Positions 5,130 through 63,484 of a stretch of DNA of 64,000 nucleotides are shown here, one piece after another (positions within the stretch are counted from its first letter, which is position 1; every line of letters starts with the position of its first letter). Location of the stretch: assembly GCA_017614995.1 (NCBI GenBank), contig JAGAAX010000036.1, positions 62,001 through 126,000 on the forward strand, in the 5' to 3' direction. The position numbers were made by a program, and so were the translations under genes. A model generated the notes under the pieces. That model ran no database searches, was not told where the DNA came from, and was given only the letters and a program-made list of their open reading frames with translations. Origin of the DNA: Spirochaetaceae bacterium. Lineage in GTDB: Bacteria > Spirochaetota > Spirochaetia > Treponematales > Treponemataceae.

Positions 5130-6084
5130 AAAAGTAACGCATAACTGGCAGATTAAAATTGTTTGTCTCATAATCTCTGTTTTGTTGTATTTCACCTATC
5201 AGGGAAACATAATGGAAACGCGCATTTTTTCTGTGCCGCTTTCAGTTGTTGCTAACAGAGATTTAGTGCCGGCACAAAAGACGCCGAAAACAATCCGGAT
5301 TGTTGTAAAAGCTTCAAAAGATATTATTGATACTTTGCAGACAGGCGATTTTTCAGCCTATATTGACGCAGACCAGTATCTTCAAAAAGGAATTTATTCA
5401 ATACCTATACAGATAAATCTTTCTCAAAGGGCACAGCTTTTTGAGCCGCTTCAGGTAGACCCAAAACCAAAAGTTATTACCATGCTGCTTGAGGAACGCA
5501 CTGTAAGAGATATTCCTATAAAGCCGATTTTTACCGGTGAAGTTGATGAAGGCTTTGAAGTTACAGGCTATTCATGCTCACCTGATCAGATAACAATTAC
5601 CGGCCCGAAAACCGCTGTTGAGAATTCATCTGCAACATTATCGATTGTTCTGCCACTTGCAAACAAGAATGCGCCTTTTACGCAGACAACACAGATTAAG
5701 CCGCTTATACCGAACGACCTTATAAACATTTCAGGTGCAAGTTCAGTTTACATGAATGTCAATATTCTGCCTAAACAGCTTTCAAAGACATTTTCTGGTG
5801 TTACTGCAAATTTTGTGTCTTTAAATCCGTATTTTCAGGTAAAGCAGCTTTCAAATTTGTCAATTACGGTTTCTGGTGCGCAGAATACACTGAAAAACTA
5901 CAAGCCGTCGCAATACACAGCACAAGTAGACTGCTCGTCAATTGAAACAGAAGGTGAATACTCGCTTCCAGTATCAATTCATTTGCCAGATGGGCTTACG
6001 CTTGTTTCAATTTCCGCCGATTATATCAATATATCAGTTGAACCGGCTCCTGTAATTCTGCCTGAGGTTTCTGGTGCACAGTAG
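5107..6084 (+). CDS. YbbR-domain protein, CdaR-like regulator of CdaA
   Basis: A 325-aa protein with one N-terminal transmembrane segment (about residues 16-34) and an extracytoplasmic region of beta-rich YbbR repeats. One repeat core is visible at RDIPIKPIFTGEVDEGF, with a following GPKTAVE element. In Firmicutes CdaR binds CdaA through the membrane and modulates c-di-AMP synthesis; by context this protein should do the same. The start codon lies within the 3' end of cdaA, so translation is probably coupled. It is followed by three strong hairpins. Confidence 0.85.
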   Translation: MKKIQLIEKVTHNWQIKIVCLIISVLLYFTYQGNIMETRIFSVPLSVVANRDLVPAQKTPKTIRIVVKASKDIIDTLQTGDFSAYIDADQYLQKGIYSIPIQINLSQRAQLFEPLQVDPKPKVITMLLEERTVRDIPIKPIFTGEVDEGFEVTGYSCSPDQITITGPKTAVENSSATLSIVLPLANKNAPFTQTTQIKPLIPNDLINISGASSVYMNVNILPKQLSKTFSGVTANFVSLNPYFQVKQLSNLSITVSGAQNTLKNYKPSQYTAQVDCSSIETEGEYSLPVSIHLPDGLTLVSISADYINISVEPAPVILPEVSGAQ

Positions 6085-6095
6085 AGCTAATGGGC

Positions 6096-6218
6096 ATCTC
6101 GAAAAAGTCACTGCTGTGCCTTTTTCGAGATTGCCGCCGAGTTGTAAATCGCTAAAATGGCGCGATTTACAACATCGCATTTTCAAAGTTACCTCTAAAA
6201 ACTGAAGTTTTTAGAGGT
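6096..6218. repeat. Cluster of three consecutive perfect hairpins
   Basis: Three inverted repeats follow the cdaR-like gene: 6096-6107 with 6120-6131 (12 bp, loop 12), 6141-6152 with 6162-6173 (12 bp, loop 9) and 6191-6203 with 6206-6218 (13 bp, minimal loop). All stems are perfect. None is followed by a convincing T run except weakly, so they are not simply stacked terminators. They lie between cdaR and the DUF2225 gene and could terminate, stabilise or attenuate the transcript. Confidence 0.75.
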
Positions 6219-6243
6219 TCCCTTATTCAAAGAGAGGACTGAA

Positions 6244-7143
6244 ATGTACAAAAAACACGTTATTGAATCTAAGACACTTCAATTAACTTATTTTTCAAAG
6301 CAGAAAATAACTTGTCCTGCATGTGGTGCAGAATTTCCACGCGAAGAACTGCTTTCAGGCAGCGGACGTCTTCTTGCAGGTGAATTGACTGATGAGCTGC
6401 GGAGAAACTACATACCTTCTCAAAAATACGGTCGTGTTTATCCGCTGGTTTATTCAATTGGTGTTTGTCCTCAATGTTTTCTTGCATTGTTCTGGAATGA
6501 TTTTACCTCAATTGATAAGACATTGGCTGAACAGCTTTGTGAATCATCACAGGAGCGCGTCGATACAGTAAAGACAATTTTTCCGTATTTTGACTTTATG
6601 CACAACAGAACACTGATTGACGGTGCAGCCGCCAATTATCTTGCGCTTTTGTGTTACGAAAAACTGCCGGCAACAAAGTATTCAACAACAATGCGCCGCG
6701 CAATGCTTACATTAAGGCTTGCATGGATGTCTAATGACCTTCATGAAGTCTGTCCTGACAGAAACTACGACTATATTGCTTCGGTTTTCTACCAGAAAGC
6801 AATGTTCTTTTACAATGAAGCAGTACGCAAAGAATCAAACGGAGAGGAGCGTATCGGCAATATCGGCTCTTACGGTCCGGACTTGGACAAAAACTACGGT
6901 TTTGACGGCTGTGTTTATCTTACGGGTCTGCTTTATTACAAATACGGACAGACAGACAACCAGGAAGCAAGACTTAAAGCGCTTGACGAGCATAAACGCG
7001 CGCTTGCACGTATGTTCGGTTTGGGAAAATCTTCAAAAGCAAAACCTGGTCCGCTTCTTGAACACTCAAGAGACTTGTACGACAAGCTTACAGCCGAACT
7101 TAAAGCGGCAAATGCACTCAACGAAGATGATGATGACGAATAA
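6244..7143 (+). CDS. DUF2225 family protein with zinc-binding N-terminus
   Basis: The 299-aa product has two CxxC pairs (C24/C27 in CPACG and C75/C78 in CPQC), likely a zinc ribbon, followed by a helical TPR-like region with many Tyr and Ala residues and an acidic tail of Glu and Asp. This is the DUF2225 family, common in spirochaetes and Firmicutes and of unknown function. A strong AGAGAGGA Shine-Dalgarno precedes the ATG. The stop abuts the truA start with no gap, so the two are co-translated. Confidence 0.8.
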   Translation: MYKKHVIESKTLQLTYFSKQKITCPACGAEFPREELLSGSGRLLAGELTDELRRNYIPSQKYGRVYPLVYSIGVCPQCFLALFWNDFTSIDKTLAEQLCESSQERVDTVKTIFPYFDFMHNRTLIDGAAANYLALLCYEKLPATKYSTTMRRAMLTLRLAWMSNDLHEVCPDRNYDYIASVFYQKAMFFYNEAVRKESNGEERIGNIGSYGPDLDKNYGFDGCVYLTGLLYYKYGQTDNQEARLKALDEHKRALARMFGLGKSSKAKPGPLLEHSRDLYDKLTAELKAANALNEDDDDE

Positions 7144-7923
7144 ATGAGGAACATTCTTCTTACAATCTCTTATGACGGTACAAATTTCTGCGGCTGGCAG
7201 AAGCAGGACGGACAGCGTACTGTTCAAGGTGAAATAGAAAAAGTTCTGGAAATTGTTCATAAATCACAGATTGATTTGCATGGCTCAGGCCGGACAGATT
7301 CTGGCGTACATGCCGCCGCGCAGGCGGCAACATTTTTTTCCCCGATAGATTCTATCCCTGTAGAAAATTATCCGCTTGCGCTTAATTCGCACCTTCCTAA
7401 AGACATACGGATTATGTCAGCGAGAGTTGTCGATGATTCATTTCATGCGCGTTTCTCTGCAACAAAGCGGACATACAGATACTTTCTGCATTGCGGAAGC
7501 ACACCGCCCGCACACGAGATGAACTACGTCTGGTGCATTCACCGGAAAATCGACATTGCACGCCTTAACAGAATGGCTTCTGTTCTGCATGGCGAAATTG
7601 ACTGTGCAACTTTTGCAGCAAGCGGAGACGCAAGCAAGTCCACATTCAGATATATTGAACATGCCGTCTTTTTTACAGAAGGCGACAAACTTGTCTTTGA
7701 GATTTGTGCAAACGCCTTCTTGTGGAAAATGGTGCGCTCAATTGTAGGTAGTCTGCTTTATTATGAAAAACAGGGCATGGACAAAGACGGCTTTGCAAAA
7801 ATCGTTTCTTCATGTGACAGAAAACTTGCAGGCCCGACTGCACCGCCTGAAGGGCTTTTTTTGTGGAGCGTAGGCTTTGACGGCATAAGGAGAGGGCCGG
7901 GCACACAAAAAGACGGCGGCTAA
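7144..7923 (+). CDS. truA: tRNA pseudouridine(38-40) synthase
   Basis: TruA isomerises uridines 38-40 in the anticodon arm of tRNA. The 259-aa protein has the N-terminal ISYDGTNFCGWQ motif and the catalytic aspartate D52 in GRTDSGVHA, plus the later FHARFSA and FLWKMVR motifs. Length matches the family. It starts directly after the stop of the DUF2225 gene and its last codons overlap the convergent priA end by 4 nt, so no terminator separates the two. Confidence 0.96.
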   Translation: MRNILLTISYDGTNFCGWQKQDGQRTVQGEIEKVLEIVHKSQIDLHGSGRTDSGVHAAAQAATFFSPIDSIPVENYPLALNSHLPKDIRIMSARVVDDSFHARFSATKRTYRYFLHCGSTPPAHEMNYVWCIHRKIDIARLNRMASVLHGEIDCATFAASGDASKSTFRYIEHAVFFTEGDKLVFEICANAFLWKMVRSIVGSLLYYEKQGMDKDGFAKIVSSCDRKLAGPTAPPEGLFLWSVGFDGIRRGPGTQKDGG

Positions 7924-9899
7924 AGCAGAGAAACCGGGTCTACATCAACTTCAACATAAACGCCCTGCGGCACTCTGTAAGAGCGCAAAAAAGCATTGCA
8001 GAGCTTTTGCATGGGCGTAAGATATTCACCGCGGAGCAGAACCTGAAACCTGTAGTTTGACGAAATAAGCGAAAGCGCACATTCAGCAGGACCGAGTACC
8101 TCAATGCCGGGTGTATCTGACTGCAAAGACTGCGCCGCAAAAGCCGCCGCATTTTCCGCGTCTTTTTGGTCTTTTGACCTGAACACAAGCCTTATGAGCC
8201 GCGAAAAAGGCGGAAAAAGCGAGAGTCTGCGCGTTTCAAGCTCTTCTTTGTAAAAGCCCTCAAAATCGGAAGTGCAGGCCTTAAAAATTGCGCTTCTTGC
8301 AGGGTTCCATGTCTGTACAATAACTTTGCCGTCAGGGAAATAGCGGCCGGCTCTGCCTGCAACCTGAACAATAAGCGAGAATGTCCTTTCAGCCGCGCGG
8401 AAGTCCGGCATGTGAAGAGCTGTATCGGCGTTAATAATGCCTACAAGCTTTACGCCCGGAAAATTCAAGCCCTTGGCAATCATCTGCGTGCCGAGCAGAA
8501 TGTCGGCTTCGCCTTTTTTGAAAATCTCAAGCTTTTCCTGCAACTCGCCGCGCTGTGTAAGAACATCAGTGTCAACCCTGATTGTCTTTAAATGCGGAAA
8601 CTTTGCCGAGAGTTCTGTCTCTATAAATTCTGTGCCGAAACCCGAATAGCCGACGTCTACAGAACCGCATTCAGGGCAGCTTGCAGGCGGCGCTTCAGTC
8701 CAACCGCAATAGTGGCAGCGCAAGCGTCCTTCTTTTTTGTGATAAGTCATCGGCACAGAGCAGTTTTTGCAGTAAAGCTCGTAGCCGCAAGTCTTGCATC
8801 TAAAAAAGTGGGTAAAGCCGCGCCGGTTCAAGAACAAAATTGTCTGGCGTTTTTCTTTGTACGTTTCGTTTATTTCTTTTTCAAGCTGAGGTGAAATACA
8901 GCCGTTTAAGTTTTCTTTAGACAAATCAATTATAGAAATTTCTGGCATTGCACCGCCTGCAAGCCGTCTTGTCAAAACGTGTCTTGTAATTCTGCCGTCA
9001 TTCATAAGCGCCCATGCTTCGGCAGAAGGTGTTGCGCTGCCCATAACAAGAGGAATTTTGTCAGCAGAACAGCGTTTTATGGCAACCTGTCTTGCGTGGT
9101 AGCGCGGTGTTGTGCCTGACTTATAAGAGCCGTCATGCTCTTCGTCGATTATAATCATGCCCAAATCTGGAACAGGCGCAAAAACGGCACTGCGCGCGCC
9201 TACAACAACACGCGCTTCTTTAGAGATAATTCGCCGCCACTCGCTCAATTTCTGGCTTGGTGTTAAACCTGAATGAAGTACAGCGGCTGTCTTGCCGAAA
9301 CGCCCCGTAACAGCTTCTACAACCTGAGCCGTCAGTGCAATTTCTGGAACAAGATAGATTACGCCCTTGTTTTTAGAAAGCATGAATTCGGCGCACTGCA
9401 AGAAAACTTCTGTTTTGCCCGAACCTGTTGAGCCGTAAAGATAATGCATAAAAGACTTGCCGCTGTCAGAAGTTATTCCGTCTACGGCTTTCTGCTGTTC
9501 TTCAGAAAGTACAAGCTTTTTGTTTTCAATAAAATCATCGATAAAGGCGTCGCCGGAAGCTTTTACCTCGCGTCTGCCTGACGGAAGCATTGCGCTTAAA
9601 GCCTCTCCATGACTGCAAAGGTAAAACTGGCTTACCCAGCGCGCAAGCTCCACAAAAGCAGCGTCAAAAATAGGCTCTTTATCAATTATGCGTCTTACTT
9701 CTTTTATTTTAGAAATATCAAAATCAAAACCGTCCGGCAGGCTGTCCATAACATTGATGACAAAAGCAGTTACTTTCTGCTGCCTTCCAAACGGAACTTC
9801 GACACGCATACCTACAGTGCAAATCTGTTCATCTTTCAGTTTATAGGTAAAAGACTGGTGCAGCGGAATATTGAAAAGAACTTCAATCCATTTTGCCAT
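7920..9899 (-). CDS. priA: Primosomal protein N' (replication restart helicase)
   Basis: PriA recognises stalled forks and reloads the replicative helicase. The 659-aa product carries the N-terminal DNA-binding domain, Walker A GSTGSGKT (156-163), the DEEH Walker B box near residue 253, SF2 helicase motifs including the VAGRAGR motif VI, and the zinc-binding insertion with eight cysteines (CKTC, CKNC, CHYC, CPEC) around residues 385-425. The ATG shares its A with the TGA of the upstream uracil-DNA glycosylase gene, so the pair is translationally coupled. Confidence 0.96.
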   Translation of the reverse strand: MAKWIEVLFNIPLHQSFTYKLKDEQICTVGMRVEVPFGRQQKVTAFVINVMDSLPDGFDFDISKIKEVRRIIDKEPIFDAAFVELARWVSQFYLCSHGEALSAMLPSGRREVKASGDAFIDDFIENKKLVLSEEQQKAVDGITSDSGKSFMHYLYGSTGSGKTEVFLQCAEFMLSKNKGVIYLVPEIALTAQVVEAVTGRFGKTAAVLHSGLTPSQKLSEWRRIISKEARVVVGARSAVFAPVPDLGMIIIDEEHDGSYKSGTTPRYHARQVAIKRCSADKIPLVMGSATPSAEAWALMNDGRITRHVLTRRLAGGAMPEISIIDLSKENLNGCISPQLEKEINETYKEKRQTILFLNRRGFTHFFRCKTCGYELYCKNCSVPMTYHKKEGRLRCHYCGWTEAPPASCPECGSVDVGYSGFGTEFIETELSAKFPHLKTIRVDTDVLTQRGELQEKLEIFKKGEADILLGTQMIAKGLNFPGVKLVGIINADTALHMPDFRAAERTFSLIVQVAGRAGRYFPDGKVIVQTWNPARSAIFKACTSDFEGFYKEELETRRLSLFPPFSRLIRLVFRSKDQKDAENAAAFAAQSLQSDTPGIEVLGPAECALSLISSNYRFQVLLRGEYLTPMQKLCNAFLRSYRVPQGVYVEVDVDPVSLL

Positions 9900-10660
9900 C
9901 AGACAGAACCGCCGTTGAGATAACTTGTCTGATAATCAGGAACAATTTCAAGTAGCTTGCTTCTGAAAATTTTAAGGTCTTCCCATGCAGGGCGCTTCAA
10001 AGATTCATCTCTAAGCAGCGCACTTGGGTGAAACGTAGCAAGCAGCGGAATCCCCTGATAATTGAAAAACTTGCCGTGAAGCTTTTTTATGCCGGTTGTT
10101 GTACCGAGCAGATTGTGCAGGGCAGTGTTGCCTACCGCGAGAATCATCTTTGGCTTTAGAACATCAATCTGAGCCTGAAGAAACTTAGCGCAAGCCTGTG
10201 CTTCTTCCGGCAGAGGTGTTCTGTTTGCAGGCGGTCTGCATTTTACGATATTTGCAATAAAGCAGTTGTCTTCTCTTGAAAGCTGAATAGCGGCAAGCAT
10301 TTTGTCCAATAACTGACCGGCTTTGCCGACAAAAGGTTCGCCGGTTCTATCCTCGTCTGCGCCGGGACCTTCGCCGATTACAAGCACAACAGGCGGAATC
10401 TTGCCGATGCCGGGAACAGTGTTGGTTCTTGCCTTGCAGAGAACGCAGCCGGTACATTGCGCAATATCTAAAGCGATTTTCTTTATTTCGGCGGCGGCAT
10501 CTGGGACTGCTGCATCTTGCACAGCGACAGAAACTGGTGCGGCAATATCCGCATCGTCTTTAAAGTCTGCCGGCGCAAAATCAGAAGAAACCCTGCCTGA
10601 ATAAAGGCAGTCGGCGTTATTTAAGAGGCTGTATAAAAGAGATTTTTCCTGTGCTGTCAA
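9899..10660 (-). CDS. Uracil-DNA glycosylase, family 4 (Fe-S)
   Basis: This enzyme removes uracil from DNA. The 253-aa protein has a variable N-terminus of about 60 residues, then the family 4/5 core: Cys ligands C69, C72, C141 and C157 for a 4Fe-4S cluster, the GEGPGADED motif and the late FHPSALLR motif. It starts at TTG (10660) with an AGGAG Shine-Dalgarno 5 nt upstream; no better start is in frame. Its stop overlaps priA by one base. Together with priA and the upstream glycosyltransferase it forms a minus-strand run, though a hairpin sits after the glycosyltransferase stop. Confidence 0.92.
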   Translation of the reverse strand: MTAQEKSLLYSLLNNADCLYSGRVSSDFAPADFKDDADIAAPVSVAVQDAAVPDAAAEIKKIALDIAQCTGCVLCKARTNTVPGIGKIPPVVLVIGEGPGADEDRTGEPFVGKAGQLLDKMLAAIQLSREDNCFIANIVKCRPPANRTPLPEEAQACAKFLQAQIDVLKPKMILAVGNTALHNLLGTTTGIKKLHGKFFNYQGIPLLATFHPSALLRDESLKRPAWEDLKIFRSKLLEIVPDYQTSYLNGGSV

Positions 10661-10689
10661 TTTTGCTCCTAACTAAGACTGCAAAGATT

Positions 10690-10728
10690 AGACGTGTTCG
10701 GAAACTAACCGAGTTTTCGAACACGTCT
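10690..10728 (-). terminator. Strong hairpin after the glycosyltransferase gene
   Basis: AGACGTGTTCG (10690-10700) pairs perfectly with CGAACACGTCT (10718-10728), and pairing extends inward with one wobble. On the minus strand it follows the glycosyltransferase stop codon, but the downstream sequence has only a weak T-rich stretch. It may attenuate transcription into the glycosylase and priA or protect the upstream mRNA. Confidence 0.55.
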
Positions 10729-11950
10729 ATTCATTCTCATGCTTTTTTATTTCAACAGCCTTTTCATAATATTTTACCAGCGTTGGTGTCAGCGCCTCAA
10801 TAGACCATTGCTTTGACCATGCCTTTGCTTCTTCAACTTTGGCTTCGTAAAGCTTTTTGTCATTCAACAGAAGCTGAACCTTTGAAGTGAACTCGTCAAC
10901 ATCGTTTTTGACCATAAAGCCGCCGTTGTCACCGCGCATAACATCAACAGTGCCCATTTCGCCGATAGCAACAACCGGAATGCCGACAGTCATAGCTTCA
11001 ATTGTTACAAGCCCCTGCGTTTCTGTAAGGCTTGGGAAAACAAAAAGAGACGACATCTTATAAAAATAGATTAAATCCTCGCGCGCGGCATAGCCAGTAA
11101 AAGCAACAGAGTCTTTTAAGCCGCGTTTTTCGGCAAGTTCTTTTAGTTCATCAAGATAAGGACCGCCGCCAACAAAAAGCAGGGCTGTGTGAGGATTAGT
11201 CTGCTTTACTTTTTCAAGCACATCGTACAAGAAGCTTAAGTTTTTCTCTTTGACAACGCGGCCGACATAAAGCAGAATCTTTTTGCCGGAAATTGACGGA
11301 TATTTTTTGTGCAGCGCGTTCTTGATGCGTTTGTTTTGCGCTTTATCAAAATCAAGCAGGTTAGACGGAATGCCTGTCGGCAGAAGCTCTGAATCGCGGT
11401 CAATTCCGTATTCATGCACAACTTTTGCAATGCGTTTCGTCGGTGCAATAATCAGAGACGCTCTCTTGAGATAAAACTTAACAATGTCCCGTCCAATTTT
11501 TTTTGTGGAAGACTGCGGCAAAAAATTTATGTAGTTTGCAAGGTAGTCTTCCCATAAAGTATGAAAAGTAAAAACTATAGGCAGCTTTGCTTTTTTTGAA
11601 TAAAGCGCGCCCAAATAGCCGATTGTCCATTCAGAATTAATATGAATAACGTCTGGTTTAAAAGCCTTCATTGCGTCTTTTAAGTAATGCCACTTGTCAA
11701 TGCGGACCATGCGGTCTTCTTTTGACCAAATTATTCCAGTAGAAGGAATTCTGACAATTAAAAACGGACTTTTGCTGTCTTCGTTTTCTTCGTCAAAAAG
11801 AGCACTTTTCTGCTGTTCTGCCGAATATTCAAGACAGACAATGCAGACTTTATGACCAAGTTTTGTGAGTTCAGAAGCAAAAGATTTAACAGAGATTGCA
11901 ACGCCATTGATTCTAGGAAAATAGGCGTCAGTAAACATGGCGATATTCAT
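10727..11950 (-). CDS. Glycosyltransferase family 4 (diacylglycerol glucosyltransferase-like)
   Basis: A 407-aa GT-B fold glycosyltransferase. The N-terminal domain begins NIAMFTDAYFPRINGVA, typical of bacterial 1,2-diacylglycerol 3-glucosyltransferases and mannosyltransferases that act at the inner membrane. The C-terminal domain has VGRVVKEKNL and the EX7E nucleotide-sugar motif in ETQGLVTIEAM. It probably makes a glycolipid; the exact sugar and acceptor cannot be told from sequence. A longer frame exists, but the ATG at 11950 fits homologues and lies 6 nt after a good -10 box, with no Shine-Dalgarno, so the mRNA is probably leaderless. Confidence 0.85.
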   Translation of the reverse strand: MNIAMFTDAYFPRINGVAISVKSFASELTKLGHKVCIVCLEYSAEQQKSALFDEENEDSKSPFLIVRIPSTGIIWSKEDRMVRIDKWHYLKDAMKAFKPDVIHINSEWTIGYLGALYSKKAKLPIVFTFHTLWEDYLANYINFLPQSSTKKIGRDIVKFYLKRASLIIAPTKRIAKVVHEYGIDRDSELLPTGIPSNLLDFDKAQNKRIKNALHKKYPSISGKKILLYVGRVVKEKNLSFLYDVLEKVKQTNPHTALLFVGGGPYLDELKELAEKRGLKDSVAFTGYAAREDLIYFYKMSSLFVFPSLTETQGLVTIEAMTVGIPVVAIGEMGTVDVMRGDNGGFMVKNDVDEFTSKVQLLLNDKKLYEAKVEEAKAWSKQWSIEALTPTLVKYYEKAVEIKKHENE

Positions 11951-55037: not shown

Positions 55038-55520
55038 ATGGGAATGTCTGCAAAATTTCAGCTTCAAATGTTTATTACCAATCCGATTTTTTTATCGGCC
55101 ATTTTCAGCTGGCTTTCGGCACAGTTTATAAAAACTCTTATCAGACTTGTTTCGGGGCGTGTGCACTCGCTTTCAGAGCTTATCTCGCTTCTGTTCTGGA
55201 AAACAGGCGGAATGCCTTCATCTCATTCTGCGCTTGTTTCGGCAGTAACAACGTCAATCGGCTACCGTTCAGGCATTAATTCTGAACTTTTTCTGCTTTC
55301 ATGCTGTTTTGCGCTTGTTACAGTCAGAGACGCTGTAGGCGTAAGACGTTCAAGCGGCATTCAGGCAAGAGAAATCAATAACATCGGCAGAGAACTTAAA
55401 AAAAAAGAAGTTATCGACTCTTTTAATCCGGTAAAAGAAGTGCAGGGTCACAAACCATTAGAGGTTATTGTCGGCTGTCTTCTCGGCGTGTTTATCGGCA
55501 CTGCTTTTTCAATCTTATAA
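55038..55520 (+). CDS. Divergent PAP2 family (DUF212) membrane protein
   Basis: The 160-aa protein has three to four membrane segments and the conserved GGMPSSHSA with RDAVGVRR motifs of DUF212, a family distantly related to PAP2 acid phosphatases. It also keeps NEVQGHKPLEVI-like EVQGHKPLEV near the C-terminus. A lipid-phosphate phosphatase role is possible but unproven. It is the first gene before the rnf-like cluster, and the next gene starts 4 nt after its stop. Confidence 0.85.
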   Translation: MGMSAKFQLQMFITNPIFLSAIFSWLSAQFIKTLIRLVSGRVHSLSELISLLFWKTGGMPSSHSALVSAVTTSIGYRSGINSELFLLSCCFALVTVRDAVGVRRSSGIQAREINNIGRELKKKEVIDSFNPVKEVQGHKPLEVIVGCLLGVFIGTAFSIL

Positions 55521-55524
55521 CGCC

Positions 55525-56856
55525 ATGAAGAAAGTTTTCTGCTGCTGCATTCTGCCAATTCTTTACATCTGCTTTATTTCATTACTTATAATTTTCCGCA
55601 TTCAGTTTGTTGCTTCTACATGGGAAGGCTACAGAATTCTTGCAGTTCCTGTTTCGGTTTCAGAAAAAAAAGTTCTTGAAGAGCTTAAATCACAGGGAAT
55701 AAACGGAATTGTAAGTATTTCTTCCGTTTCTTTGTGCCCCAAAAACGAATTAACTCCGGTTACAAGTTTTGAAATGTCTTATAGAGAGGCTATCAAGAAG
55801 TATTTTTTTGATGAAACACAGCAGAACAATCTTTTTTATTTGAAAGAATCTGGAAATCTTGGTTCAAAAATAAAGCAAATAACAAAAAAAACTGGCTCAA
55901 CCTGGCGCGTAGAGCGCATCTCGTTTTTTGCTGTTCTGATTCTGATTTTTCCGCTCGGCTTTTCGATTGTGTTCTTTATCCTAAGTAAACGGAAACTTCT
56001 TTATTTGTTTTTGCAGCTTCCGTTTCTTGTTTTTTGCTGCGGTTCTGCTGAATTTGCGGCTGCACTGTGCGCCTCAATCTTTCCTATAGTAGCTTATTCA
56101 ATTCAGTATTATTGGCAGAGACCGGGCTGGGTCAATTTCTTAATCAGCGACCTTGTAACAGTTGTGCTTGTTCTTATGATGCTTTCTTCGCTTATTCTTA
56201 CGGTGCCGTTCACAAAAGATTTCCGCATAATCTTTCTTGGGCTTTCGGCATTTTTTGCAGCAGCCTGTGCCTTGTGCTTTTTCTTTTTTCTTGACAAGAA
56301 CAAAAAGCAGTCGGGCTTTATCTTAATTAACTCTGCGCAGACTGTTTCTTTTACGCTAAAATCAAAGCTACAGCTTACGGCTCTTGCGGTTCTGACAACA
56401 GGAGTTCTTGCCCTGTCATTTACTGCAAAAGACCGTTTTTTTTCGTCGGGCGGGCTGAAAGGGCTTTCGCTTCCCGTTCCTCACGAATATTATAAGACAA
56501 CAGGCTTTTCATATACAGCTTATGAAAACCTTGTTACGTCAGAATCTCAGGCGCGCGCATTGCCAGATTTAGCTGATTTTGTTAATCTTAACTGGAAAAC
56601 TGATGTGCTTCCGTATGTGTCTCTGAACGTAAAGTTTCCGCCGGCTTATGCCGGTTCTGAAGTTTCCATGCCTGTTTATGAATATGACGAAGACAGCGGA
56701 AGGGTTTCAACAGAACGGAAAATCATGTATACTTTTGATGAATCATATTTTGCGTCTGTACTTTCCAAGATTGCTTCAAGCCCGGAACTTTCAGTTGAGA
56801 AAATGCTTTTTGAGCAGAAACATTTTGTTACAGTTGCATATAAACAGTTTAGATAA
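55525..56856 (+). CDS. Membrane protein of unknown function preceding the rnf-like genes
   Basis: The 443-aa protein has an N-terminal membrane helix (about 4-26), an outside domain of about 110 residues, a bundle of six or seven membrane helices (about 132-270), then a helix near 285-305 and a second outside domain at the C-terminus. No family is recognised and no catalytic motif is seen. It lies between the DUF212 gene (4 nt) and rnfC (9 nt), so it is probably in the same transcript and may be an added component of the rnf-like complex. Confidence 0.7.
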   Translation: MKKVFCCCILPILYICFISLLIIFRIQFVASTWEGYRILAVPVSVSEKKVLEELKSQGINGIVSISSVSLCPKNELTPVTSFEMSYREAIKKYFFDETQQNNLFYLKESGNLGSKIKQITKKTGSTWRVERISFFAVLILIFPLGFSIVFFILSKRKLLYLFLQLPFLVFCCGSAEFAAALCASIFPIVAYSIQYYWQRPGWVNFLISDLVTVVLVLMMLSSLILTVPFTKDFRIIFLGLSAFFAAACALCFFFFLDKNKKQSGFILINSAQTVSFTLKSKLQLTALAVLTTGVLALSFTAKDRFFSSGGLKGLSLPVPHEYYKTTGFSYTAYENLVTSESQARALPDLADFVNLNWKTDVLPYVSLNVKFPPAYAGSEVSMPVYEYDEDSGRVSTERKIMYTFDESYFASVLSKIASSPELSVEKMLFEQKHFVTVAYKQFR

Positions 56857-56865
56857 AGGTTACTC

Positions 56866-58176
56866 ATGATTTCTACGAAAAAATTGACCGCATCACAATC
56901 TGTCACATTCAATTCATGTATGAACGCTTATGTTCCGCATGAGGTTCTTGTTGCATTATGGCAGGATGAATATACAAAAACAGAGCCGTTAGTGTATGCA
57001 GGGCAGCAGGTTGAAGAAGGGCAGATTATCGCACGCGATTCAAGAACACTCTGCCAGATACATTCTCCTGTGCCGGGCAAAGTCGAAAAATTTTCGGTTA
57101 TCTCTCTGCCAAACGGAAAAACAGGCCCATGCCTTACGATAAAAACTGAAGGTGCTTTTTCTTTTTTGGGTAGACCCAGAAAAAAGCAGCAGTGGGACTT
57201 TAAGTTTGCAGACCAGCTTATAAGAGACATTGGCGAAAAAGGCATTGTAAACACCTTTTATAAGCCCGAACCGCTCTCAAGACAGCTTATGCAGCAGAAG
57301 CTCCGCAAAGAGACCAGAACAATCTTTTTAAGACTTTACGACCTTGACCCGACAAACTGCACAGATTCTTTTATTGCAAAGAATTACATGCCGCAGATTC
57401 TTGAAGCCATGTCAATTCTGGCACATATAGTTGAGCCAAGCGCGGTTTACTGTCTTTATGACAAAGCTTCAAATAAAAAAGAAGACGCCGCCGCGATGAA
57501 CATTCTGTTCAATACAGTGCCTCTTCATTTTATTCCGGTTGATGTTTCAAAATATCCAAGCGGCGGCACTTTTGACATTCTTAATCTTGTGCGGCACTCG
57601 GCAAAAGCACCGCAGGAACTTTCTATCAGCAGAAAAGACCTTTTTATTGACAGCATGACGGCGCTTTCTGTTTATGAGGCAATTGTTTTAGACCAGCCTT
57701 CAATGACGCGTTTTGTCTCTGTTGGCGGAGAAGCACTGGCTGAAAGCAAAATCTTCAAAGTCAGAATCGGAACACCTATAAAGAACCTGATTGCTGAATG
57801 CGGCGGCTTCTGTTCACAGCCGAGCAAAATCCTTATTAACGGCAGAATATACGGCTCTGCAATAAGCAGTTTTGATACGCCGGTAACAAAATACACAAAA
57901 TCAATAACAGTTCTGCCAAAACACCTGTTTGATTTTCTGCCGACATCGCCATGTATCAGATGCGGAAGCTGTAGAAAAATCTGCAAAGCAGAACTTCAGC
58001 CTGACAAGCTGTATACGCAATATATGAAAAAAATGCATCTTTCAGCTGATGAAATGAAGATGACGCTGCTTTGCAGTGAATGCCGGCTTTGTAATATGGT
58101 CTGTCCTTCAAGGCTGCCGCTTTTTCAGACCATAAATGAAATTAAAAAAATAGCGGAGACTCATTATGAAGATTAA
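56866..58176 (+). CDS. rnfC: RnfC-like subunit with degenerate FMN/NADH site
   Basis: The 436-aa protein keeps the RnfC layout: an N-terminal barrel with VEEGQIIA and SPVPGKV, a central domain with KYPSGG, an SLBB-like region (VGGEALAESKIFKVRIGTPIKNL) and two C-terminal 4Fe-4S clusters (C363/366/369/373 and C403/406/409/413). The stretch that should read GLGGAGFP reads NTFYKPEP after the conserved GIV, and the NAAECEPY motif reads RLYDLDPT, so the FMN and NADH sites seem lost. Its end overlaps rnfD by 11 nt. Confidence 0.88.
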   Translation: MISTKKLTASQSVTFNSCMNAYVPHEVLVALWQDEYTKTEPLVYAGQQVEEGQIIARDSRTLCQIHSPVPGKVEKFSVISLPNGKTGPCLTIKTEGAFSFLGRPRKKQQWDFKFADQLIRDIGEKGIVNTFYKPEPLSRQLMQQKLRKETRTIFLRLYDLDPTNCTDSFIAKNYMPQILEAMSILAHIVEPSAVYCLYDKASNKKEDAAAMNILFNTVPLHFIPVDVSKYPSGGTFDILNLVRHSAKAPQELSISRKDLFIDSMTALSVYEAIVLDQPSMTRFVSVGGEALAESKIFKVRIGTPIKNLIAECGGFCSQPSKILINGRIYGSAISSFDTPVTKYTKSITVLPKHLFDFLPTSPCIRCGSCRKICKAELQPDKLYTQYMKKMHLSADEMKMTLLCSECRLCNMVCPSRLPLFQTINEIKKIAETHYED

Positions 58177-59218
58177 CACAAAACTTCGTTTTTCACCGTT
58201 TGTACATATTTCGCCGGCACTGCCAAATACCATAGTCATAATGATTGCAGCAATTCTGCCACAGCTTGTCTTTTTAGGCATTTACAAAGACTTTAAGGCA
58301 CTGCTTGTAATTGCAATGTCTGTTCTGGCAAGTGTTGCAGCAGAAGTTGTAGACAACTTTATTCAGAAAAAAATGACGGTTGGCTCGCTTGTTTCAATTC
58401 TTGAAGGTCTCATAATCGGAATGTTTTTGCCGGAAGTATATCCGCCGGTGCTGGCTTTCTTTGTTGTAATGTGCAGCCTTTTTGTTGTCAAATACTGCTT
58501 TGGCGGACTTGCCTCTAACTGGGCAAACCCGACAGCATGTACAATTATCATTGCATGGTTTACAGGTTCTCTGTTTTTTCCTGATTTTCAGCTTTCAGCA
58601 GAAATGCTTGAATCTGCAAACCCGGCTTCAATGCTTTTTTCAATGGATATTATTCCTTTAAATGAAAAAGCAGGTATTGTCTCAAATTTCTTGAATTCGC
58701 ATATTCTGAATCACTTCGGCTTTGTTCTCCCTGACGGTTATACTTCGCTTTTCTGGGATACACACGCGCTTATACCGGCTTTCAGGTTCAATCTGCTGAC
58801 GCTTGGTGCTTCGCTTATTCTGGCTTCGCTTTCAATGATTGACCTTATGATTCCGGTCTGCTATTTCACAGTTTATGCCGTTTTAGTACGGCTTTTTTCT
58901 CTTGAACCATTTACAGGAATTACAGGACAGGGCGACATTCTTCTTGCACTTCTTACAAGCGGCACTCTGTTCTGCGGCTTCTTTATGCTTGCATGGTACG
59001 GCACAACACCTATGAGCGTGCCGGGCAAGATTGTTTACGGCGTGCTCGCAGGTATCGCCGCATTTGTAATGAGCGGGGCAGGAACTTCGCCTACCGGTGC
59101 TGTATTTACAGTAATTCTGGTAAACACTGTATCTCCGATAATTCAGCTTTTTGAAGATAAGTGTTATAACATTTATAAATCTCTAACATTAAAATCGAGA
59201 CTTGAGCATGAAAGATAA
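58166..59218 (+). CDS. rnfD: RnfD-like membrane subunit without the SGAT flavin-attachment motif
   Basis: The 350-aa protein has about eight to ten membrane helices and clear RnfD blocks: SPFVHISPALPNTIVIMI at the start, KYCFGGLASNWANPTA, and LLALLTSGTLFCGFFMLAW. In RnfD a covalent FMN is attached to the Thr of an SGAT motif before the LF block; here the corresponding region (about residues 165-205) has no SGAT or DxxTGAT. The start codon lies inside rnfC and its end overlaps rnfG. Confidence 0.87.
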   Translation: MKINTKLRFSPFVHISPALPNTIVIMIAAILPQLVFLGIYKDFKALLVIAMSVLASVAAEVVDNFIQKKMTVGSLVSILEGLIIGMFLPEVYPPVLAFFVVMCSLFVVKYCFGGLASNWANPTACTIIIAWFTGSLFFPDFQLSAEMLESANPASMLFSMDIIPLNEKAGIVSNFLNSHILNHFGFVLPDGYTSLFWDTHALIPAFRFNLLTLGASLILASLSMIDLMIPVCYFTVYAVLVRLFSLEPFTGITGQGDILLALLTSGTLFCGFFMLAWYGTTPMSVPGKIVYGVLAGIAAFVMSGAGTSPTGAVFTVILVNTVSPIIQLFEDKCYNIYKSLTLKSRLEHER

Positions 59219-59711
59219 AAAACAGATTATACATGAAGTAGGTGCTTCTTCAATATTAATTGTTCTCTTTTCTCTGATTCTTTTCTTTATGGTATACGGT
59301 TCAAGGAAAAGCTGGAACAACGGACTTGAGCAGATGACTGAAAAAGTTCTGAACGACCATGCCGGCGCAGAATATTCAATAAAAGGAATCATCCCTGTTC
59401 AGACACCGCTTGCTGTTTCTGCCGCTGTATTTGAGCTTGAAAAAAATAACACTCTTAAATCTGTACCGGCTTATGCTGTTTTGATTAGGGCTTACGGAAT
59501 TGCTGGCGCACTGCCTTTAGTTTATGTCTTTGACGACGATGACGCTTTTTTTGCAGGCATGGGCGGTCTTGAGAATAAAACAGCCACTTACACAGACACA
59601 GGGCTTTTCGGCTACGGTCTTACAACACCGATAATTGAATTCTGGCAGAAAAGGGCACAGGCTCTCATTCCGCCAAAAGAAACCGAAGACGAAAAAGGAG
59701 CAGACAAATGA
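59208..59711 (+). CDS. rnfG: RnfG-like periplasmic subunit with altered flavinylation motif
   Basis: The 167-aa product is short for RnfG (usually about 180-220) with an N-terminal membrane helix (about 16-32) and a periplasmic domain. The FMN-acceptor region that normally reads like ISGATITS reads LFGYGLTT in the same context before PIIEFW, so the acceptor Thr is replaced by Gly and no SGAT remains. The HSETPGLG-type block is also absent. The ATG at 59208 is inside the rnfD end. Confidence 0.8.
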   Translation: MKDKKQIIHEVGASSILIVLFSLILFFMVYGSRKSWNNGLEQMTEKVLNDHAGAEYSIKGIIPVQTPLAVSAAVFELEKNNTLKSVPAYAVLIRAYGIAGALPLVYVFDDDDAFFAGMGGLENKTATYTDTGLFGYGLTTPIIEFWQKRAQALIPPKETEDEKGADK

Positions 59712-60316
59712 TTAAGAATTACTACTACATTTATATAGCAGCTGCTCTTTCAATCATAATTCCGTTTCCGCCACGTTTTGCTTATGGAATTGTTGCAATT
59801 CTGCTTTTGAATCTACTGATTTACGGCGGTTTCGGCATAAAAGTTTTTGCTGAAAAATTCAATCTTCAGCCGATGCTTACAAGCCTGCTTGTCTTTTCGA
59901 TTATTGCTCTGACAGGTATTTACAAACAGCTTTTGATTCTTTATGCGCCTTCAATTGCGTTTACTTCCGGGCTTGCGCTTTATCTTACGGCTTTCTCGTC
60001 TTATATTTACGGCAATGTGCTTGATACAGTCGGTTTGTCACCGGTAGAGCATATAATACGCACCTCAAAACGCACAGGGCTTTTTTCTGGTCTTGTTCTG
60101 CTTTTCTTTTTGCTGCGCGATATACTTGCGTTTGGCTCTATAACGCTGCCGGCTCCAAAAGGAATAAAGGTAATTACGCTTTTTAAAGTGGGTGAAGTTT
60201 ATCCGCTGCATTTTCTTGCAACAATACCGGGAACACTTATAGTTCTTGGGCTTATTTTTGCCCTGTTCTCATACATAAACCGCAAACTCATGATTTTAAG
60301 GAGGGTTTCAAAATGA
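59708..60316 (+). CDS. rnfE: RnfE-like membrane subunit lacking all cysteines
   Basis: The 202-aa protein has six or so membrane helices in the RnfE/NqrD pattern. In RnfE two conserved Cys in half-helices (the GLCP and VNC segments) bind an intramembrane [2Fe-2S] cluster with RnfA; this protein contains no Cys at all. The equivalents read ALSI and AFTS. Overlaps rnfG and rnfA by 4 nt. Confidence 0.82.
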   Translation: MIKNYYYIYIAAALSIIIPFPPRFAYGIVAILLLNLLIYGGFGIKVFAEKFNLQPMLTSLLVFSIIALTGIYKQLLILYAPSIAFTSGLALYLTAFSSYIYGNVLDTVGLSPVEHIIRTSKRTGLFSGLVLLFFLLRDILAFGSITLPAPKGIKVITLFKVGEVYPLHFLATIPGTLIVLGLIFALFSYINRKLMILRRVSK

Positions 60317-60870
60317 GCCTTTCTTTATTGTTTTATTATCTTTTTTGTTCTTCCGCTGTCTTTGTTTACGGCATTGGCTTAAAACAGGCATTAATGAAGT
60401 CAAGCACAATTCATTATTTTGGAACAACAGCAATCAAAACGTTTCTGACAATTCTTTTTTCGCTTCCGGTTGTCTGGGGTTTGTCCATGTTTTTTGTCAA
60501 ACGCGGATTTGCAGAACTTTATCCGTTAATTCTTATTATAACAGTAATTCTAATATCCAAAATCATTGACTCTGTTACATATTTATTAAAAGGTTCTGTA
60601 TCAGCAGGAATTCTTCTGCCTTCTTCAATTATGCTGCTGGCTGTAAATGAAAGCATAACACTGCTTGAAGCTTATACAATTGCAGCGGGCATTTTTCTTT
60701 CAGTTTTTCTTCTGCTTCCGCTTTTATATGCAATCAGAAAAAGACTTAACAATTCTATGCCGCCAAAAGACTTTAAGTATTACGCTGTTGCATTTTTCAG
60801 CGCGGCATTCATCTTTTTTGCATTTTTTGCATATCATTTTTCTTGGTTTAATCAGGAGTTCTTCAAATGA
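60313..60870 (+). CDS. rnfA: RnfA-like membrane subunit lacking the cluster cysteines
   Basis: The 185-aa protein has six membrane helices like RnfA/NqrE. The segment that normally reads GLCPFMGVS reads GIGLKQALM, and the LPLITTNCAVLG segment reads LPSSIMLLAVNES, so both cluster cysteines are missing. One Cys near residue 12 is not at the expected site. Overlaps rnfE and rnfB by 4 nt. Confidence 0.82.
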   Translation: MSLSLLFYYLFCSSAVFVYGIGLKQALMKSSTIHYFGTTAIKTFLTILFSLPVVWGLSMFFVKRGFAELYPLILIITVILISKIIDSVTYLLKGSVSAGILLPSSIMLLAVNESITLLEAYTIAAGIFLSVFLLLPLLYAIRKRLNNSMPPKDFKYYAVAFFSAAFIFFAFFAYHFSWFNQEFFK

Positions 60871-61553
60871 TAGTCCCATTACTTGTTTTTCTGCTTATAA
60901 TAAGCGCTGTCTCTTTAGCAATCTGGACTATATTTGGATTTCTTCCGGATTATTTGAAAGACCGCAATATCAATGTTACGCAGGACATTCTTTCGCATGA
61001 CGAAAAAGATATTGTTTTTTCCAGAGAGAATGCTGTTATTTCAAAAGATTTAAGAGCTGTTGTCCGCTGCAACCCCGAAAGAAAGGTCACAAAGCGCGGC
61101 TTTTTCTACGACGACATTCAGGACTGCCGCCTTTTCAAGGAAATCTACGAATCAGTTTCAGATTGTACCTGCGGCTGCATCGGATTCGGTTCATGCATTA
61201 ACTACTGTCCGCAGGACGCAATCACAATAAAGAACGGAACAGCCGTCATAAACTCAAACTGCTCCGGCTGCGGTCAGTGTGTCGATATATGCCCTAACGG
61301 ACTTATTACGCTTATTCCAAAAGAGCAGACACATTATGTTGCGTGCGCCACAACCGGCGGCGAGCACATGAAAGAGATTTGCTCGACAGCATGCGTAAAC
61401 TGCGAGAACTGTCAGAAAAACTCACTGACAGAAAAAGACATACAGAACTGTCCGGCAGAATGTATCGTAGCAGACGAAAAAAAGCCCTCTAAAGACTTTA
61501 AATTCTGGCAGTTATGCTATAACATACTAACTGCTCAGTCTACAAAAAATTAA
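60867..61553 (+). CDS. rnfB: RnfB-like ferredoxin subunit without the CGxxGC domain
   Basis: The 228-aa protein has an N-terminal membrane helix (about 4-25) and cytoplasmic ferredoxin domains. Canonical RnfB has a first Fe-S domain with CGxxGCxxYA after the helix; here the sequence goes straight to AVVRCNP and then CTCGCIGFGSCINYCPQDAI and NCSGCGQCVDICPNGLI, with a further cysteine cluster CVNCENC. It is shorter than usual. This subunit and RnfC keep Fe-S clusters, unlike the membrane subunits. Confidence 0.85.
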   Translation: MIVPLLVFLLIISAVSLAIWTIFGFLPDYLKDRNINVTQDILSHDEKDIVFSRENAVISKDLRAVVRCNPERKVTKRGFFYDDIQDCRLFKEIYESVSDCTCGCIGFGSCINYCPQDAITIKNGTAVINSNCSGCGQCVDICPNGLITLIPKEQTHYVACATTGGEHMKEICSTACVNCENCQKNSLTEKDIQNCPAECIVADEKKPSKDFKFWQLCYNILTAQSTKN

Positions 61554-61564
61554 TCGGAACGGTT

Positions 61565-63484
61565 ATGGGAAAAATCAGCCTTTGCCTCGGGCTTTTTGCC
61601 GAAACCTCGGCAGACGGTTCGGGCATACCAAATTCACATATTTATGAAAACGGCTATAAAACTCTTGCAGCCTATCTCTTTTCTCATGAAAAAGTACCGT
61701 TCTCTTTCTTTTTTTCAGGGCATGTACTTGAATGGCTTCAAACTCAGCACGCGGAATATCTTCTTGTAATTGAAGAACTTCTTGCAAGAAAGCAGATTGA
61801 AGTAATCGGCGGCGGCTACTATAACCCGCATTTTCCGCTCTTGCAGCCAGCCGACCGTACAGGTCAGATTGAAGCTCTGACAACAGCTTTACGCAAGCAT
61901 TTTAAGAAACGCCCGCATGGCTGCTTTATCAACGAAAGCGTCTGGGATCCTTCGCTTATAAACACGCTCAATTCATGCTCGCTTGAATATGTCATGCTCG
62001 ACTATTCGTTTTTTGCTTCTGACATGTCTGACCCGAAAGCACTTACAGTTTCTATAACCGAAGATATGGGCAAGTCAATTTTTGTGCTTCCCCTGCATAA
62101 CGAGCTTTTTGACACAGCCGACATGATTTCACCAGAAGCATTTTTAGAGAAGCTTAGAAAAATTGTGCCTGCTTCGCTTAACAACCCGACAATTACATGC
62201 TTTATTTCAGCCGAAAAGCTTGCCGAACTGGTGCAGCAGAACTGGCTTGAAGAATGTCTTGCCCTGTTAGACACAACTTTTAAAGACAAAATCGAGCTTT
62301 CTCTGCCTGGAAAAGTCTTGAAAAATTCAAAGACTTTCAACAAGGCAATTATTCCGTCTGGAATGAGCAAAAAAGCTTCAAGCTGGGCATTAAAGGCTTA
62401 TTCAAAAGCCGCGCCGAACAAAAACACAATGCGCGCGACTGTACGTAATTTTTCGCTTTTATACCCGGAAGTCTTGAATCTTTATTCCAGAATGAGCTAC
62501 ACAAGCCTTTTGGTAAACCAGTGCAGGGGCGACAAGGTGCGCAAAAAAGCCGCGCGCGAAGAACTTTGGAAGGCGCAGAACGGCGCAGCATACTGGTATC
62601 TCGGCTCTGGCGGCATTACAAACACAAAGCTTAGAAACGAAATGTACAAAAACCTTTTGCACGCAGAACAGCTTGTAAGAGAAGTCTCTAACATAAATGA
62701 CGCACTCAACTCGTTTGACGTAAACTTTGACGGCAGCAGCGAATATGTGGCGCAGTTTAAGCTCTACGATGCCTATCTTTCAAAGACAGGCGGCTCAATC
62801 TACGAGTTTGACATTCTTCAGTGTGAGAGAAACTTTGCAGCGACAATATCTGACAGGCGGCGGCGTGGACTTTTTTCAGATTTTCTTGTAAATGACAAAG
62901 ACTTCAGCCTGCTTTCAAAAGGCCAGAATCCCGACGGCATAAGCTGCCTTAACGAAGCTCTGTACAACGAGCTGAAATACGACCGCACAAAGAAAAACGT
63001 GAAGCTTGAAGCGCAGGTTCTTTTTGAAAAGAAGAAGTCCATCAAAATCGTCAAAGAGTTTCACTTTACAAAAGATTCAATCCGCGTTGACTACAGGCTT
63101 ATAAACACCTCAAAAGAAAACATCAATGCGTATCTGATTATCGAAAACAACCTGTGTATGCAGTCAAACAGCCCGGAAACGCTGTCTCTTGAATGTTCGG
63201 CGGACGATCTGCTTCTGCCAATCGCGCCCGAAACCGACTTTTTCAACAATAAGGGCATTTTCTACCTCCGCATGACAGACAACCTCTCACAATGCTGCTT
63301 TACGCTGTCTTCAAGCGACGCGGCAGGAGTCTACGCCTATCCGTATTTCAGCCAGCAGCAGTATCTTGCCACAACAACAGGACTTTTCTGGAAAATCTCT
63401 CTACTGCCGGGCGCAGTCTGCAGCCGCACCGTAACCCTCTACATAAAACGCACCGAAACCCACCCCCACAAGCGCAAGAACTAA
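61565..63484 (+). CDS. GH57-like protein (4-alpha-glucanotransferase/DUF1925-DUF1926 type), probably impaired
   Basis: The 639-aa protein matches GH57 alpha-amylase/4-alpha-glucanotransferases in length and order: an N-terminal (beta/alpha)7 barrel, a helical DUF1925-like part and a C-terminal beta domain with FDVNFDGSSEYVAQ. The catalytic nucleophile is in place at E124 (NESVWDPSL; E123 in Thermococcus litoralis). However the N-terminal HQP motif reads FAETS, GGGFYEP reads GGGYYNPH, and the acid/base DDGEKFG region reads ISAEKLA, with Ser near position 215. The active site is thus probably altered. It starts 11 nt after rnfB. Confidence 0.8.
   Translation: MGKISLCLGLFAETSADGSGIPNSHIYENGYKTLAAYLFSHEKVPFSFFFSGHVLEWLQTQHAEYLLVIEELLARKQIEVIGGGYYNPHFPLLQPADRTGQIEALTTALRKHFKKRPHGCFINESVWDPSLINTLNSCSLEYVMLDYSFFASDMSDPKALTVSITEDMGKSIFVLPLHNELFDTADMISPEAFLEKLRKIVPASLNNPTITCFISAEKLAELVQQNWLEECLALLDTTFKDKIELSLPGKVLKNSKTFNKAIIPSGMSKKASSWALKAYSKAAPNKNTMRATVRNFSLLYPEVLNLYSRMSYTSLLVNQCRGDKVRKKAAREELWKAQNGAAYWYLGSGGITNTKLRNEMYKNLLHAEQLVREVSNINDALNSFDVNFDGSSEYVAQFKLYDAYLSKTGGSIYEFDILQCERNFAATISDRRRRGLFSDFLVNDKDFSLLSKGQNPDGISCLNEALYNELKYDRTKKNVKLEAQVLFEKKKSIKIVKEFHFTKDSIRVDYRLINTSKENINAYLIIENNLCMQSNSPETLSLECSADDLLLPIAPETDFFNNKGIFYLRMTDNLSQCCFTLSSSDAAGVYAYPYFSQQQYLATTTGLFWKISLLPGAVCSRTVTLYIKRTETHPHKRKN

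Follow-up and report, generated by a model that had tools for sequence, protein, structure and literature searches.

A membrane protein family of the Spirochaetia encoded beside an apparently decayed set of rnf genes

The stretch of DNA analysed here, referred to as the window, is 64,000 nucleotides long (G000:C12:62001-126000) and comes from a draft genome of the Treponemataceae (family f1). On its forward strand the gene for a membrane protein of 443 aa, the focal gene, runs from an ATG at 55525 to a stop at 56854-56856, lying 4 nt after the stop of a DUF212 gene (55520) and 9 nt before the ATG of an rnfC-like gene (56866), which confirms the coordinates and the spacing to rnfC given in a preliminary description. 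The wording of that description, that the protein is fused in operon to the rnf-like cluster, holds in that the genes are co-directional and nearly touch, but the product is not a fused protein. The frames of the rnfC-, D-, G-, E-, A- and B-like genes run into one another, with overlaps of 4-17 nt, and a gap of 11 nt separates the last of them from the GH57 gene; the listed starts are mechanical ones. The genes are as follows.

55038..55520, +, DUF212 (divergent PAP2), upstream neighbour (Pfam E 8.8e-41)
55525..56856, +, the 443-aa membrane protein, focal gene (ORF and AlphaFold model; family seen only within Spirochaetia here)
56866..58176, +, RnfC-like; both 4Fe-4S motifs kept, GGxGFP NADH/FMN loop gone; 202 bits against a TIGR01945 cut-off of 245.95
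58166..59218, +, RnfD-like (Pfam, NCBIfam)
59202..59711, +, RnfG-like by position and family; without SGAT and without an FMN_bind match
59708..60316, +, RnfE-like by position and family; zero cysteines in the listed sequence
60313..60870, +, RnfA-like; weak Pfam Rnf-Nqr match (E 0.027), ligand cysteines gone
60867..61553, +, RnfB-like ferredoxin (Pfam, NCBIfam); without the N-terminal CGxC cluster motif
61565..63484, +, GH57, downstream end of the block (Pfam)

The focal protein is predicted to be laid out in the following parts.

55528..55593, +, membrane helix 1, residues 2-23 (AlphaFold model, hydropathy)
55597..55926, +, outside domain 1, residues ~25-134, beta-alpha, holding the invariant W33 (alignment, model)
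55927..56295, +, five membrane helices, residues 135-257 (AlphaFold model)
56338..56445, +, helix 7, residues 272-307 (AlphaFold model)
56446..56853, +, outside domain 2, residues ~308-443, low model confidence (alignment, model)

The five central helices are modelled at residues 135-153, 157-173, 177-197, 210-230 and 233-257. The two outside domains of the preliminary description are borne out by the model, which fits both of them on one side of the membrane, but its count of about eight helices is not, as seven are modelled and a simple hydropathy scan sees 6 segments in the window protein. The same scan finds an extra C-terminal hydrophobic segment in 32 of the 45 members of a broader family profile (A7), and this would be an eighth helix. 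In an alignment of 31 sequences all of the invariant or nearly invariant positions, 11 in number (W33, F94, Y105, P317, P319, L349, W357, E425, L428, Q431 and F434), fall in the outside domains, and the last eight of these, from P317 onwards, are in outside domain 2. The same alignment has zero such residues, acidic or other, between 135 and 257, and it has no conserved Cys or His, so the protein itself probably carries no electrons.

The dN/dS of the focal protein is 0.077, 0.131, 0.100 and 0.114 against four congeners (dS 0.33-1.32), and 0.182 for a fifth, more distant pair that is saturated at a dS of 2.89. These low ratios, together with orthologues found class-wide, confirm that the ORF is real and beyond chance. 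In one genome (G191; L133, 8636-10026) the focal gene is broken into two overlapping frames.

A search with the single sequence detected the protein in 34 of 59 relatives, which understated the family, since a profile (A1) finds a match in 108 of the 194 genomes of the order, including 70 of the window's own family. Amongst the listed misses of this profile G026 is the only genome of the window's family, with 66 further misses unlisted. The search was extended over the phylum Spirochaetota, and there the broader profile A7 has a match in 71 of the 296 genomes drawn, with all listed matches lying within the class. Fourteen matching genomes are outside the order; one (G435, L211) was judged false, and RnfC adjoins in 12 of the 13 others. 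G042, G058 and G140 have no real profile match (that of G140 is false) yet have the focal gene in place, where it was reached through rnfC, and the genome counts are lower bounds because some members were only found through this neighbour. Neither the focal protein nor a decayed RnfC was found in G014, G022 and G032, drafts of the window's family that are 70-81% complete, and no inference is drawn from these. Judged by these searches the family appears to span the class Spirochaetia. Two candidate homologues were rejected, L126 being UbiA-like by eye and L211 a protein of 736 aa matched at E 6e-4, and the single-sequence match in G056 lies on a contig without neighbours, the true copy there being L215.

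The earlier statement that nothing in the protein matches a known family stands, as the window protein has no match at E<=1 in Pfam or NCBIfam, and the 45 members of A7 scanned singly gave isolated one-member matches only, none of them convincing (best E 0.0031 in Pfam and 0.015 in NCBIfam). No sequence relatives were found in the PDB (best E 0.12). When compared by hhalign with the profiles of RnfA, C, D and E the focal family reaches at most 2.3% probability, in a comparison where RnfA and RnfE, which are truly related, score no more than 45% with each other. What is defined here would appear, therefore, to be a previously unclassified and unnamed protein family.

The fold was approached with two AlphaFold models, that of the window protein (pLDDT 68.3, pTM 0.51), in which pLDDT is mostly 70-90 over residues 1-257 with short weak stretches and outside domain 2 is poor, and that of the homologue from Brucepastera parasyntrophica (L134; pLDDT 70.5, pTM 0.53), which has the same layout. 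Proteins of the RND superfamily are built of two repeats that together comprise 12 helices and have relay acids in helix 4/10, and the predicted topology of the focal protein is similar to one half of this and the start of the second. It has been considered that the protein is a truncated RND/SecDF-type module (a helix, an outside domain, five helices, a helix, an outside domain and often one more helix) that would do mechanical or transport work outside the membrane, driven or gated by an Rnf-derived complex. The two modelled sequences are 24% identical and agree in architecture, although the same 11 sequences underlie both models. Members of the superfamily (NPC1, Patched, Dispatched, MmpL, AcrB, SecDF) make up most rows of the structural alignment lists of both models, over model residues of about 5-305, with a Z of 5.4-7.2 (maxima of 7.2 and 6.9 per list); a Z below 8 is a common, middling level by the tool's own warning, and talin tops the list of the window model with a Z of 7.4, with FtsX and Wzc also ranked high for the Brucepastera model. 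The Foldseek check that had been proposed was run on both models and returned nothing at E<=0.001. Its best matches for the window model are MexB-type (E 0.087) and MmpL3 (E 0.17), and for the Brucepastera model the NPC1-related 8v0g (E 0.014, prob 0.96) and SecDF (E 0.042, prob 0.82), followed by MmpL3 (E 0.053) and FtsX (E 0.056). By hhalign the focal family reaches at most 4.4% probability against MMPL, SecD, SecF and AcrB, as against 93-98% amongst those families themselves. No internal repeat was detected between the two halves or between the two outside domains, the helices number 7-8 and not 12, with helices 9-12 absent, and the region of helices 2-6 has no conserved residue. An RND-like module of this kind is thus rather unlikely, and since the profile tests lend no support, the Z scores are middling and talin stands on top, the likeness of the model to half of an RND protein is kept as a lead only.

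The typical locus has the order DUF212, focal protein, RnfC-, D-, G-, E-, A- and B-like, GH57, with members missing or undetected in some. Linkage was counted for genes on the same strand with matched spans no more than 900 nt apart, in deduplicated loci, and covers the loci that were fetched rather than every genome matched by A1. Counted in this way an RnfC-like gene is directly downstream of the focal gene in 114 of 119 loci. Eight of these had been reached through rnfC (L135, L136, L138, L142, L143, L163, L164 and L168) and without them the count is 106/111, or 106/109 when the false homologues L126 and L211 are also left out. This leaves three genuine exceptions, two in genus g66 (L106 and L116) and one in G328 (L200). 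The suggestion that the protein travels with the rnf set is therefore upheld, and its orthologues are not found mainly outside rnf neighbourhoods. DUF212 is upstream in 108 of the 115 deduplicated loci with room for it, and GH57 is at the downstream end in 75 of the 85 with room, a class-wide count that is not deduplicated; we know of no link between GH57 and Rnf. A scan for promoters and terminators gave counts at chance level. The evolutionary rate of the focal protein covaries with those of its neighbours; over 29 loci the partial correlations are 0.25-0.51 and over 52 loci 0.48-0.58, with GH57 the highest. This covariation is uninformative, as GH57 and DUF212 covary with the focal protein as much as RnfC and RnfD do.

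All 194 genomes of the order have an RnfC match, 168 of them above the family cut-off, and where checked the high-scoring copy is elsewhere in the genome (e.g. G000:C37:80662-81954). However, within the window's family the best RnfC match is no stronger than about 1e-57 in 13 of the 71 genomes sampled (G002, G026, G034, G065, G069, G101, G149, G153, G172, G176, G180, G193 and G197), and these are drafts listed as 93-99% complete. The decayed set is thus not always a spare copy and seems to be the only one there, so that in these genomes, which include the T. pallidum-like G026, an annotation of 'rnf' may rest on the decayed locus alone.

The roles of the Rnf cofactors are taken from the available part of PMC12174285. 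The NADH/FMN loop of RnfC, scored as GGxxFP (canonical RnfC includes GGAAFPA, GGSAFPE and GGATFPV types), is found in 0/39 loci of f1, 0/1 of f2, 0/9 of f3, 0/11 of f4 and 0/21 of f5, and in 0/9 of the decayed class-level loci, as against 6/6 unlinked canonical controls and 3/3 canonical loci linked to the focal gene. Both 4Fe-4S motifs of RnfC are kept in 38/39, 1/1, 8/9, 11/11 and 21/21 loci of the same five families and in 9/9 of the class-level ones. All four [2Fe-2S] cysteines of RnfA/RnfE, scored with one alignment column of slack, are present in 0/33 loci of f1, 1/1 of f2, 3/7 of f3, 2/5 of f4 and 0/18 of f5, compared with 3/4 unlinked controls (L144 fails) and 3/3 linked canonical loci. 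The SGAT motif was found in 0/38 loci where RnfG was found by profile, a few genomes being counted twice, and in none of the window's family when RnfG was also picked by position; when picked in that way SGAT or SGAS is seen in four loci of f3 (L094, L100, L103 and L120). A motif of SGAT type is present in 6/6 unlinked controls (L144, L145, L158, L160, L165 and L166) and in 2/3 linked canonical loci (L207 fails). The linked RnfG of G000 and of G026 have no match to FMN_bind, and the covalent flavin region of RnfD, including the SQAT of E. coli RsxD, could not be reliably aligned. The description of the neighbouring set as degenerate thus agrees with what is seen in the window's family. As the outcome for the motifs differs by family the loss is graded and not uniform, and with canonical, partly gutted and fully gutted sets to hand the role of an Rnf core without cofactors becomes directly testable. 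Some f3 and f4 loci, such as L094 and L098, are intermediate in decay, with the RnfA/E cysteines and the CGxC of RnfB kept and the RnfC loop lost.

In a tree of RnfC all decayed copies lie to the same side of a branch with good support (100/99), and the intact linked copies fall without resolution amongst the canonical ones, with long branches that call for caution. Judged by its motifs, the set beside the focal protein is a decayed Rnf, often a second copy in the genome, and these adjoining genes would often not encode the energy-conserving pump that their annotation implies.

It might be assumed that the rnf-like set and the focal protein are simply decaying remnants without function, and the lost cofactor motifs, the split frame in G191 and the loss of the focal protein from G026 are what such a process would leave. 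We regard this as highly improbable. The dN/dS of every block gene measured is 0.030-0.131 against L051, L053 and L054, where the gene is present. Over four congener pairs, with the saturated fifth left out, it is 0.064-0.110 for RnfC and 0.030-0.077 for RnfD, and the highest value amongst these pairs is 0.216, for RnfG in the pair with L056. The block, including the decayed rnf genes, is under purifying selection, 70 of the genomes sampled from the window's family have a match to the focal protein, and the 4Fe-4S motifs of RnfC are kept almost throughout f1.

A number of loci separate the parts of the block. In three families the focal protein adjoins a canonical Rnf (L198 of f15, L207 of f11 and L209 of f10), and the genomes concerned (G427, G374 and G413) have no full-length RnfC match other than this linked canonical one; this pairing is likely to be the older state of the locus. 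In G328 (L200) DUF212, the focal protein and GH57 are together with no rnf genes between them, and a full RnfC is elsewhere. The converse is seen in G026, a small genome of 1,139,633 bases in one contig, which we infer to be T. pallidum-like, an identity that fits its gene content. Its locus (L159, G026:C1:166000-185999, at 4431-11067) passes from DUF212 directly to the RnfC-like gene and keeps RnfC, D, G, E, A and GH57, and neither RnfB nor the focal protein was found in G026 by profile searches and inspection of the locus. Since the focal protein is absent from G026 and rnf is absent locally in G328, neither strictly needs the other. In genus g66 (L106 in G179, L116 in G152, and L161 and L162) the block is scattered, with the focal protein and the RnfC-like protein on separate contigs. 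A third contig of G152 carries an RnfD with a lower score, and in G179, a draft that is 82% complete, no RnfD-type gene was found.

These loci bear on the proposal that the focal protein works with DUF212 and/or GH57, in a lipid-phosphate or glycan function, with the rnf genes as passengers in the operon. The arrangement in G328 would suit such a partnership, as would the covariation of both genes with the focal protein, which is as strong as that of the rnf genes. It is harder to reconcile with L198 and L207, which have Rnf but no DUF212 match beside the focal protein, with G026, which keeps DUF212, rnf and GH57 but has lost the focal protein, and with the adjacency of rnfC itself to the focal gene in nearly every locus, and we think this partnership improbable.

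The idea, raised in the preliminary description, that the degenerate set has its functional output in this protein is not supported, since the protein also occurs with canonical Rnf, persists without local rnf in G328, is absent from G026 despite RnfC, D, G, E and A, and has no conserved Cys or His able to carry electrons. Linkage to both canonical and gutted Rnf, with loss in either direction, points instead to an accessory and dispensable subunit. As the focal gene is directly before rnf, and the electron-carrying parts are lost in most loci, the protein is probably accessory to an Rnf-derived complex that is no longer the usual electron-driven pump. The explanation that we favour, which we would give about an even chance, is that the protein belongs, as an accessory subunit in the membrane, to one Rnf lineage of the spirochaetes, with most of the linked copies gutted. 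Its two outside domains would probably dock it to the outer face of the complex, near RnfG and RnfD, and it would stabilise or gate the complex whilst carrying no electrons itself. The older state is taken to be that of the three families in which it is paired with a ferredoxin:NAD Rnf of normal appearance, and from this, in most genomes examined, with a separate canonical RnfC elsewhere, the linked copy may have shed the NADH site, the covalent-flavin motif and the intramembrane [2Fe-2S] ligands to varying degrees. Such losses would leave a scaffold in the membrane and, in the cytoplasm, the 4Fe-4S proteins RnfC and, in loci that keep it, RnfB, and this complex would most plausibly sense redox state or act in regulation rather than pump. 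That both the focal protein and the RnfC-like protein are kept in both g66 genomes, even though the block is broken, supports the accessory subunit. The lack of an RnfD-type gene in the G179 draft counts against it, as do the losses in G026 and G328, rates that follow GH57 and DUF212 as closely as they follow RnfC and RnfD, an RnfC tree that leaves a single lineage of intact linked and decayed copies unsettled, and the 13 genomes in which the decayed set seems to be no spare copy. The conserved gene order might also come from shared regulation alone, as DUF212 and GH57 are conserved too.

A bolder version is that the locus encodes a machine that is an Rnf dead to electron transfer, in which the 4Fe-4S subunits would sense redox state, the emptied RnfA/E/D/G core would transmit a shape change or a flow of ions, and an RND-half-like protein would work outside, with the only 'Rnf' of the T. 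pallidum lineage being a version stripped still further; this we consider doubtful.

Compared with Rnf as known (RnfABCDGE, or Rsx in E. coli), the locus shares the order C-D-G-E-A-B and the two 4Fe-4S motifs of RnfC, and in three families the set is canonical, but most focal loci have lost the NADH/FMN loop and, variably, SGAT and the [2Fe-2S] ligands, and have an extra membrane protein before rnfC. The rsx locus of E. coli has no focal-type gene beside it. A comparable pattern of decay is that of Na+-NQR, which the available part of PMC4014512 proposes to have come from a duplicate of rnf that shed redox sites, its RnfC staying on in a structural role, stripped of the NAD, FMN and FeS sites. 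According to the part of PMC12174285 at hand NQR retains its membrane cofactors, unlike the focal loci, where the sites for membrane cofactors are mostly lost and RnfC keeps its FeS motifs. No account of the focal family or of this decay of rnf was found in searches of an open-licence library, most subscription papers being outside its scope, and the available part of PMC4767422 contains nothing on the focal locus.

In its available part, which names no locus tags, PMC7512555 puts forward for T. pallidum an RNF pump that is non-canonical and depends on flavin, and it is our reading that the paper refers to genes of the G026 type. In this genome the decayed locus holds the one RnfD-type gene and, apart from a partial ferredoxin-like match, the sole RnfC. 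The locus lacks the RnfC loop, any SGAT or FMN_bind match in the RnfG-like protein, RnfB and the focal protein, which argues against a standard flavin-driven pump. Without the standard electron path at this locus the finding bears on the energy proposal for the syphilis spirochaete, in so far as that part of the paper sets it out, and is worth direct testing. G026 does have FMN_bind domains at two other places, as well as ApbE, and the cell is therefore not devoid of flavinylation as such.
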